Shown here: one piece after another, positions 25,264-28,233 of the stretch | How the letters are laid out: every line of letters starts with the position of its first letter | Position numbering within the stretch: position 1 is the first letter of the stretch | Assembly (NCBI GenBank): GCA_947624795.1 | Contig: CANQLY010000004.1 | Location: 1 to 36,753 of the forward strand | Origin: an uncultured Marinospirillum sp. | GTDB taxonomy: Bacteria; Pseudomonadota; Gammaproteobacteria; Pseudomonadales; Halomonadaceae | Reading direction: 5' to 3' | Length of the DNA stretch: 36,753 nucleotides | The notes under the pieces: generated by a model | Told to the model about the DNA's origin: nothing | The model's database searches: none | What the model saw: only the letters and a program-made list of their open reading frames with translations | Made by a program: the position numbers and the translations under genes

Positions 25264-26145
25264 TTAAGATTTAAGGTGTTTTCTAGGGTGCAGCCACCGC
25301 TTAAGTAAACCGTCGCGGCCTGCAAAAAGTGAAAAAACATGCAAACTGCCCAACATTAAAATAATGGCTGGGCCGGTAGGCAGGTCTAAATGCCAAGACA
25401 TTAACAAACCTAGCCAGCAACCAAGCAAAGCAATGCCCATTGCAACGAATAAAAGCTGATCTAATTGCCTTGCCCAAAAACGTGCTGCAGTGGCTGGTAG
25501 AATCATAATACCCACCGCCATTAATGTGCCCAAGGCTTGAAAACCTGCAACAAGATTAAGCACCACTAGGGCTAAAAATACTAAATGGGTGGTGGTGCCA
25601 ATGTTGCTGTGGCGGCGTAAAAAATCAGGGTCTAAGCATTCCAATACTAAGGGGCGTAGAAAAATAGCCAACAGCAGTAAAGTAATGGTGGCTATGCCTG
25701 CTAGTAATATTAAAGCTTCATTGTCTAAAGCCAAAACACTGCCAAATAACAAATGCAGTAAATCAATATTACGGCTTTGGGTAGACACTAATAGCACGCC
25801 CAAAGCTAAAGAAAGCAGGTAAAAAACGGCTAAATTGGCATCTTCTTTTAAAACAGTGATGCGTGCCAAACCACCCGATAACAAAGCCACCACCCAGCCT
25901 GCAATTAAGCCGCCCAAAGTCATGGCACCCAAAGACAAACCGGCGACCATATAACCTAAGGCAGCGCCGGGCAAGATAGCATGGGCAATGGCATCGCCGG
26001 TTAAACTCATGCGCCTAAGCATTAAAAACACCCCCACTGGGGTGGCGCTAATGCTAAGTGCAATGCAGCCCACCAGCGCACGGCGCATAAAACCAAAATC
26101 GATAAAAGGCGCAAAAAGTGCCTGATAAATAAGCTCCAGCATCAA
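25264..26145 (-). CDS. znuB: Metal (Zn/Mn-type) ABC transporter permease
   Basis: ABC-3 family permease: RRMSLTGDAIAHAILPGAALGY, QALGTLMAVGIMILPATAARFWA; 4-nt overlap with the ATPase gene. Confidence 0.88.
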   Translation of the reverse strand: MMLELIYQALFAPFIDFGFMRRALVGCIALSISATPVGVFLMLRRMSLTGDAIAHAILPGAALGYMVAGLSLGAMTLGGLIAGWVVALLSGGLARITVLKEDANLAVFYLLSLALGVLLVSTQSRNIDLLHLLFGSVLALDNEALILLAGIATITLLLLAIFLRPLVLECLDPDFLRRHSNIGTTTHLVFLALVVLNLVAGFQALGTLMAVGIMILPATAARFWARQLDQLLFVAMGIALLGCWLGLLMSWHLDLPTGPAIILMLGSLHVFSLFAGRDGLLKRWLHPRKHLKS

Positions 26146-26906
26146 GGCACCTCTAAGCCATCAAAGTCACATATTGGCGCTAAAGGATCGGCCAATACTT
26201 GCATTTTTCGTGCTTTCGCTAAGTTTTCTGCAGTTAAAACCTGCGCTGTCGCCCCCATGCCCAAGGCGTCTCTGGCTAATAATAGGCATTTTGGAAAATA
26301 GCTACGCACCTGTTGTAGGTCATGAAGCACAGCAATAATGGTTCTTCCCTGCTGATGCCACTGCTGAACTAAATTGAGTAAATCAGCCGTTGTGGCTTCA
26401 TCAACAGCGGCAAAGGGTTCATCTAATAAAATTAATGGCGCATCTTCTAGTAATAAACGGGCAAACAACACCCTTTGTAGCTGGCCACCCGACAAAGAAT
26501 CAAGTGAACGCTTATCAAAACCTGCCAGCCCCACTTCTTGTAACGCTTGCTGCACTGCTTGCCTGTCTGATGCTTTAATGGCAGCAAATGCACCCCGCCT
26601 TGGCCAATGCCCTAGGCTTACAAAATCAATAACACGCAAAGGAAAGTCTAAATCTAAACGTGCACGCTGAGGTAAATAAGCAAGTTTTGGGTGCCCTTGT
26701 GGCCAAGTAATTCCACCCCCTAAAGGGCGTATTTCACCCATTAAGCCTTTTAGTAGGGTAGATTTTCCACCGCCATTAGGCCCCACCACAGCAAGTAAAT
26801 CACCCGATACAATTTTACCTTGCAGGTGATGCACGGCTGGGTGCATTTCATAACCTAGCGTTAAGTTATTAAACTCAACCAAAGGTCGAGATTGGTTTAT
26901 AGTCAT
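26142..26906 (-). CDS. znuC: Metal (Zn/Mn-type) ABC transporter ATP-binding protein
   Basis: Walker A GPNGGGKSTL, signature LSGGQLQRVLFARLL, Walker B LILLDEPFAAVD; Zur-like box upstream. Confidence 0.9.
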   Translation of the reverse strand: MTINQSRPLVEFNNLTLGYEMHPAVHHLQGKIVSGDLLAVVGPNGGGKSTLLKGLMGEIRPLGGGITWPQGHPKLAYLPQRARLDLDFPLRVIDFVSLGHWPRRGAFAAIKASDRQAVQQALQEVGLAGFDKRSLDSLSGGQLQRVLFARLLLEDAPLILLDEPFAAVDEATTADLLNLVQQWHQQGRTIIAVLHDLQQVRSYFPKCLLLARDALGMGATAQVLTAENLAKARKMQVLADPLAPICDFDGLEVP

Positions 26907-26913
26907 AACAGAA

Positions 26914-27024
26914 TTAACTCATTGCCCAGCAAGTTAGCAGCCACACAAGGGCGACTAGGGGCATAATTGCCAAAAGGCGGGTAACAACACCCAGTTGTAA
27001 AAGGGAAAAATTCCAAAACTTCAT
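26914..27024 (-). CDS. Putative 36-aa hydrophobic small protein between the Zur box and znuC
   Basis: Reverse-strand ORF MKFWNFSLLQLGVVTRLLAIMPLVALVWLLTCWAMS*; stop is 7 nt before the znuC ATG. Below the size cutoff of the supplied ORF track. Confidence 0.55.
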   Translation of the reverse strand: MKFWNFSLLQLGVVTRLLAIMPLVALVWLLTCWAMS

Positions 27025-27034
27025 TGCAAGTACC

Positions 27035-27055
27035 AAATGTTATAATATAACAATT
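27035..27055 (-). promoter_or_regulatory. Zur box upstream of the znu operon
   Basis: AAATGTTATAATATAACAATT contains the perfect dyad TGTTATA-A-TATAACA, matching the E. coli-type Zur consensus GAAATGTTATANTATAACATTTC. Confidence 0.85.
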
Positions 27056-27111: not shown

Positions 27112-28233
27112 TTATTTTTTTTCTAGCACAACCTTAACTAAAGCGCTTTGTGGTTCTTTAACTTGTGGCTCTTTAATTAGCAATTCTTCAGCTAATGATT
27201 CTGCAACGCCATTACCCAACATTACTGCCACCCATTGCGTTGAAGCAGATTGCTCTAACGCTATTTTAGCGATCATGGTTAAAGGTATAGAAAGGAACAT
27301 GCCCGCCGCCCCAAATAACCAGCCCCATAAAATAAGTGATAAAAATACCACCAAAGGTGACAAGCCCAAACCTTTACCCATAAACCGTGGTTCAACCACA
27401 TTGCCCATCACTAAATTAACAACAAGGTAGCCACTTGCAACTAAACCTGCTTGTGGAAAACCAAGCTGAATAATGGCTAATAAAACGGCAGGAATGGCTG
27501 CTAAAATAGAACCTACATTGGGAATGAAATTCATAAGCATGGCAATTAATCCCCACAATAAGGGGAAATCTAGGCCTAACAAACTAACCCACAAAGCAAT
27601 TAAACAGCCAGTGGCTAAGCTTATGGTCGATTTGATAACCAAATACTTATTAACCTGCGTTACAAACTGGTTGGCATTACGCAAAGACTTTTCAGCATTA
27701 GGTAAAGCTTGGCGCAGTTTTAAAGAAAAAGTTGCTTCTTCAAGCAATAAGAAAATAACAATAAAAATAATTAAAAACAGGTTAGTTAATAAAGAACCTA
27801 GGTTAGTTAACGTTTTAGCAACCCAATCCATAACTTGTGAAGGGTTAAAATGCGTTAATAATTGCTTGCTAGAAACAGGCACCCCTAAATTTTCTAAGGC
27901 GGGTAATAAACCAATCATTTCAGCTTCTAGGCGCTGTTGATAATCGGGCAGGCGGTTAATAAAACTGTCGATTGCAGCGGTAACCACCATGCCCAACAAA
28001 CTACCAAAAACCACCAAAAAAGTAACAATAATTAAAATAGCTAACACTGGCGTTACTTTATGCCGAGTTAAAAAATGCAAAGGTGGTGTACAAATAATTC
28101 CAATAAAAAGCGCCAACATAATAGGAATAACAATGGCTTCAGCAGATTTAAGGCCTGCTAAAATAACAACAACGGCAGCCAAGCCAAGCAACCAAGTCAG
28201 TCCAGGCGTTTTAATCATTAACGAATCAGGCAT
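27112..28233 (-). CDS. AI-2E family transporter (PerM/YhhT-like)
   Basis: Multi-TM protein with LLWGLIAMLMNFIPNVGSILAAIPAVLLAIIQLG and VEPRFMGKGLGLSPLVVFLSLILWGWLFG. Confidence 0.92.
   Translation of the reverse strand: MPDSLMIKTPGLTWLLGLAAVVVILAGLKSAEAIVIPIMLALFIGIICTPPLHFLTRHKVTPVLAILIIVTFLVVFGSLLGMVVTAAIDSFINRLPDYQQRLEAEMIGLLPALENLGVPVSSKQLLTHFNPSQVMDWVAKTLTNLGSLLTNLFLIIFIVIFLLLEEATFSLKLRQALPNAEKSLRNANQFVTQVNKYLVIKSTISLATGCLIALWVSLLGLDFPLLWGLIAMLMNFIPNVGSILAAIPAVLLAIIQLGFPQAGLVASGYLVVNLVMGNVVEPRFMGKGLGLSPLVVFLSLILWGWLFGAAGMFLSIPLTMIAKIALEQSASTQWVAVMLGNGVAESLAEELLIKEPQVKEPQSALVKVVLEKK

Follow-up and report, generated by a model that had tools for sequence, protein, structure and literature searches.

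In the passages available of PMC10797113 and PMC12183173, the zinc importer ZniCBA is presented as a system of three genes, both in Klebsiella pneumoniae and in R. leguminosarum. For R. leguminosarum, the part of the source available reports a Zur motif 153 bp before zniC, an interval with room enough for an ORF of the kind described below. AztABCD of Paracoccus denitrificans (PMC5387054, PMC7731109) has a related ATPase and permease, and among NCBIfam families AztA and AztB best match the transporter proteins encoded in the window, i.e. the whole 36,753-nt stretch of DNA analyzed here. The gonococcal ZnuCBA is likewise described as a three-gene operon in the available portion of PMC9280163. 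Small proteins with a membrane helix are established transporter partners elsewhere—i.e. AcrZ, MgtS, MgtU, MgtR, and LucB—and, as far as the passages available of one review go, LucB offers a precedent from an ABC importer (PMC10710835).

The importer operon and its small first gene

The importer genes of the window are listed in Table 1. Its ATPase scores 214 bits against NCBIfam AztA (cut-off 220) vs 86 against ZnuC, and its permease 256 bits against AztB (cut-off 280) vs 78 against ZnuB. These scores place the transporter in the ZniCB/AztAB branch and not in the E. coli-type ZnuCB branch, which corrects the label znuC that an earlier note on this DNA had attached to the ATPase gene. Both best scores fall below their cut-offs, and the importer is therefore not filed as AztAB proper. 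The 2 genes overlap by 4 nt, forming the adjacent pair of ATPase and ABC-3 permease of that clade that marks a ZniCB/AztAB-type operon. The nearest solved permeases are a manganese permease (7kyp) and ZnuB (9oko). No binding-protein gene stands beside the pair; 2 ZnuA-family genes are found elsewhere in the window's genome (L319 and L320, at G000:C22:2039-2938 and G000:C1:27186-27965).

Table 1 Positions of the features of the importer locus in the window
Feature	Position	Strand	Basis
Zur-type operator-like palindrome TGTTATAATATAACA	27038-27052		0 mismatches to TGTTATANTATAACA
Gene for a 36-aa protein, predicted single-span membrane protein, first of the importer operon	27024-26914, stop included	minus	ORF reading, orthologues, constraint, predicted helix
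Zinc-importer ATPase, ZniC/AztA-like	26142-26906	minus	Pfam ABC_tran 1e-23; NCBIfam AztA 1e-63
Zinc-importer permease, ZniB/AztB-like	25264-26145	minus	Pfam ABC-3 9e-52; NCBIfam AztB 6e-76
AI-2E family transporter gene	27112-28233	minus	

The small ORF translates as MKFWNFSLLQLGVVTRLLAIMPLVALVWLLTCWAMS*, and a gap of 7 nt separates its stop from the ATPase ATG at 26906, just as the earlier note had it. That note had also called its Shine-Dalgarno sequence weak, which it is in the window, but clear ones (GAGG, GGAG) are seen in several relatives. An alternative in-frame TTG at 27036, four codons 5' of the ATG, abuts the Zur-like box; the ATG is preferred as the start because protein conservation begins there. 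The box itself, a perfect 15-mer palindrome, lies 13 nt from this ATG, and the 11 nt given previously is correct if a longer box is counted.

A Zur-type box within 3 mismatches occurs at 78% of 111 homologous loci, where the mean is 2.9 mismatches vs 6.1 in shuffles. What had been proposed as a Zur-controlled operon thus does have a Zur-type palindrome just upstream, the sequence mark of a Zur regulon, retained at most homologous loci; the control itself, over the small gene together with the importer operon, is what we infer from it. A sigma-70 promoter scan returned no site, which is uninformative. Upstream, the AI-2E family transporter gene ends about 60 nt before the Zur box. At other loci, genes for GTP-binding (COG0523-type) proteins and Fur-family regulators often flank the operons (L156 1102-2349, L302, L305, L306, L312), and such neighbors are expected of a Zur regulon.

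Single-sequence AlphaFold2 predicts one helix for the small protein (residues 3-35, mean pLDDT 89), in line with the one TM helix that had been read from the sequence, and its best 19-residue hydropathy window reaches 2.28. By prediction it is therefore a short protein with a single membrane helix, as a small single-span transporter partner would be. Hydrophobicity peaks over residues 17-35 and positive charge is found only N-terminal of that segment, so that, under the positive-inside rule, the N-terminus is predicted to lie in the cytoplasm. All of 16 divergent members have the arginine that precedes the helix and the first tryptophan, and nearly all have the second. Constraint extends along the entire helix, and variation is greatest at the C-terminus (e.g. 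WAMS, WALR, WAGGWLG, and WALDWLAGL). Halomonas-type, Chelatococcus, and other alphaproteobacterial copies have His-rich N-tails with about 5–10 or more His, and the Halomonas-type copies also have a conserved Cys-His; no such tail is found in the copies of the window's genus, Klebsiella, Neisseria, E. coli, or Mesorhizobium.

The same 16 members gave no match above the curated cut-offs of Pfam and NCBIfam, and the small protein is in none of the solved structures in the PDB. A resemblance to DUF2474/CydX-type proteins (PF10617) was rejected: the window peptide reaches 14.4 bits (cut-off 26.6; E 0.041) and 1 of the 16 members matches. DUF2474 and cytochrome bd small subunits are likewise short one-helix proteins, but their operon is a different one. 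Matches to photosystem, FUSC, and cytochrome oxidase IIa proteins are isolated and weak, reflecting one-helix similarity, and were also set aside.

Evidence for a protein-coding gene

The small ORF precedes the same ATPase gene in all 8 genomes of the genus examined, window included. The 7 orthologues are 52–89% identical to the window's protein (E 4e-15 to 1e-5) and contain no stops. Of the differences between the window and its nearest relative, about 14 are synonymous and 5 non-synonymous (dN 0.06, dS 0.96); dN/dS ratios are rough in many other pairs, because synonymous change there is near saturation. Pooled pN/pS is 0.39 in the frame of the small gene vs 0.52–1.77 in the other 5 frames, and BLOSUM similarity stands 6.8 SD (z 6.8) above 500 column permutations that keep codon position. 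The frame is thus kept and its amino acids are constrained across relatives, as expected of protein-coding sequence.

On this evidence, the small ORF is almost certainly a real, long-conserved gene, and the constraint, together with the clear ribosome-binding sites of several relatives, makes its translation very likely. The earlier note had suggested a translated first gene and had named conservation of frame and start, and dN/dS, as checks. Both come out in its favor: the reading frame and the region of its start are conserved, as are the position of the ORF and its constraint at the protein level, and the gene recurs in 3 classes of Proteobacteria along with one permease clade.

Distribution of the small gene

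A profile built from 12 members was searched against 275 genomes of the family. At E ≤0.5 it matches 265 of them, or about 254 once some 11 weak matches are discounted; of these, the ones inspected in genera g4, g6, and g24 have no importer ATPase in their vicinity and were rejected for that reason. All confident members examined adjoin the ATPase gene, and in family genomes without a confident match, the best AztA-like loci do not have this permease either. The family is taken to be Halomonadaceae, since the small peptide of a Kushneria genome (L155) is the same as that of a genome of genus g15 (L077).

Outside the family, the profile finds matches in other families and orders (to E 0.036) directly 5' of the ATPase gene, and class-level matches to a 38-position profile alone (E 1e-6 to 0.04) adjoin it as well (L110-L114, L135). 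Contigs were also searched with an ATPase alignment, which returned at least 5 close loci among the matches listed; loci fetched by ATPase add members in Chelatococcus, Mesorhizobium, and Elioraea. The bacteria with a copy, marine and soil species among them, are gamma-, beta-, and alphaproteobacteria; Klebsiella, E. coli, Neisseria, Bartonella, Mesorhizobium, Thioclava, and Comamonas are examples. A search of 5,426 E. coli genomes with the Klebsiella operon gave 60 that match it over the permease, and the 2 of these that were examined both carry the small gene.

Annotation usually omits the small gene. In the plasmid collection, for example, the copies of Comamonas, Skermanella, and Thioclava are labelled "hypothetical protein", while those of Bartonella, Klebsiella, Neisseria gonorrhoeae, and Methylobacterium have no annotation, the collection's gene table being incomplete. 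In 2 E. coli records (L316 and L317, both at 1332-2168), the annotated ATPase CDS starts beside the Zur box and covers the small gene in a different frame; this start is probably misannotated. One alphaproteobacterial MAG (L154) has the small gene and the ATPase gene after a Zur-like gene with no permease adjoining, possibly an assembly artefact.

Association with one permease clade

Loci picked by their ATPase, and not by the small gene, provide an unbiased set. Among these, the small gene is found at 25 of 31 loci with a permease sharing 50% or more identity with that of the window, at none of 51 with a related permease below 50%, and at 1 of 58 with no permease detected (Fisher P = 6e-21 for small gene vs permease class over all ATPase-picked loci). 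Four or five of the 25 positives had helped to build the profile, but the outcome is the same without them. The 6 exceptions all belong to one genus, and a search of 7 of its genomes, which lack the small gene upstream of the ATPase, revealed no convincing copy elsewhere. The ATPase of this genus (L233, genus g467) has a His-rich C-terminal tail, GHGHDHVAHDHSHHDHDH, at about 2170-2270. Most of the family retains the small gene and a permease 53–59% identical to the window's, although the ATPase shares only 34–42% identity with its counterpart in the window; this favors the permease as the partner of the small protein.

A tree of 119 permeases, made with a quick method and a simple model and with long branches among the outgroups, contains a 70-member clade on a long stem (support 100), and 55 of its rows have the small gene. 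Of the 15 rows without it, 13 form a single nested AztABCD-type clade (support 100) that includes the AztB proteins of Paracoccus and of Klebsiella pBio30 and the exceptional genus. Gemmobacter (L302) has a diverged 31-aa copy that the profile missed, and a Roseomonas operon without the small gene (L310) also lacks the ATPase gene. With these absences so concentrated, the small gene would most simply be ancestral to the 70-member Zni/Azt clade, with one loss in the AztABCD branch. Mutual exclusion between the small gene and AztD was considered and dropped, as Skermanella has the small gene and a downstream WD40-repeat gene that may be AztD-like.

Discussion

We consider it probable that the small protein is a Zur-controlled single-span accessory subunit of the ZniB/AztB-type permease, in keeping with the candidate membrane subunit or regulator of the importer that the earlier note had suggested. 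During zinc starvation, Zur would leave its operator, and the small protein, the ATPase, and the permease would be made together. The helix would insert with its N-terminus inside, placing a short amphipathic stretch and the conserved arginine at the cytoplasmic face and the conserved Trp-x4-Trp-Ala in its outer half, and it would pack against the permease, stabilizing the importer or tuning its activity. Where the N-tail is His-rich, it could in addition bind Zn(II) close to the exit on the cytoplasmic side. Binding to the permease and a subunit function are suggested by analogy with known small membrane proteins, which stabilize or tune transporters. Three points temper this reading: single-span helices carry little specific sequence signal, co-occurrence in one operon could come from shared regulation instead of binding, and the AztABCD branch works without the small gene (Paracoccus, Sinorhizobium numidicum, and Klebsiella plasmid pBio30), so that the gene is not mechanistically essential.

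A different possibility, which we regard as unlikely, is a leader ORF whose translation couples or tunes that of the ATPase, possibly through membrane targeting or ribosome arrest, the peptide having no other role. In many genomes, the small-gene stop does abut or overlap the start of the ATPase gene (as an ATGA overlap in Klebsiella and Neisseria), and several copies end in WAV-x-x-P or similar before the stop, recalling proline-ending arrest peptides, but this ending is limited to part of the family. Moreover, it is the whole helix that is constrained and the C-terminus that varies most, the small gene tracks the permease clade while the ATPase diverges, and an Rfam search of the region found no known RNA element.

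We find it similarly doubtful that the protein is a Zur-regulated membrane regulator of some other target, e.g. a zinc exporter or a protease, that merely shares the importer operon. There are precedents among small metal-stress proteins, namely MntS acting on MntP and MgtS on PitA, given in the available passages of the review PMC10710835. Against this, the small gene keeps closely and almost exclusively to one permease clade, over 3 classes and on plasmids, and no convincing stray copy was found in the 7 searched genomes of the exceptional genus.

Much less probable is a shared function as zinc relay or sensor, in which a His-rich cytoplasmic tail would catch imported Zn(II) or trans-inhibit the importer at high zinc. 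The tails described above, and the Cys-His of the Halomonas-type copies, would suit this role, but several lineages, the window's genus among them, are without the tail, and relay or sensing therefore cannot be the function common to all. In some lineages, the tail may add zinc sensing to the function proposed here. Finally, a chance open frame can practically be dismissed: the ORF is short, its ribosome-binding site in the window is weak, and most of the 8 sequences have a second open forward frame, but that frame has a pN/pS of 1.70 vs 0.39 and the small ORF is conserved across classes.

The accessory-subunit reading may extend to the ZniCBA-type importer clade as a whole, including Klebsiella and the pathogenic Neisseria. 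We see an even chance that published descriptions of this clade have left out a fourth, ancestral membrane subunit, which in some lineages would have a cytoplasmic His-rich zinc-sensing tail. The clade has been studied in symbionts and pathogens as three-gene systems, and if a conserved fourth component is real, then reconstitutions, structures, and mutants made without the small gene may misjudge the transporter. The ATPase start, moreover, is sometimes annotated over the small gene, as in the E. coli records.

In the passages searched of the open-access literature, no small protein of this operon was found, and a paper on small proteins of S. meliloti makes no mention of zinc in its main text. 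To our knowledge, no small single-span partner has been described for a zinc ABC importer, and we know of no precedent for small proteins in metal ABC import. Among the closest described systems, K. pneumoniae ZniCBA shares with the window the permease clade, the Zur box, and the small ORF, which has an ATGA junction before the ATPase gene. The gonococcal ZnuCBA/MntABC has a permease 55% identical to the window's and a 34-aa family member that overlaps the znuC start. The AztABCD permease branch differs, with the small gene absent in all 13 rows tested. Compared by description, AcrZ, MgtS, MgtU, MgtR, and LucB resemble the small protein in size, membrane helix, and transporter partnership, the partner being predicted in our case. 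Small accessory proteins of transporters are a known kind; for a clade of zinc ABC importers, such a protein appears to be new.
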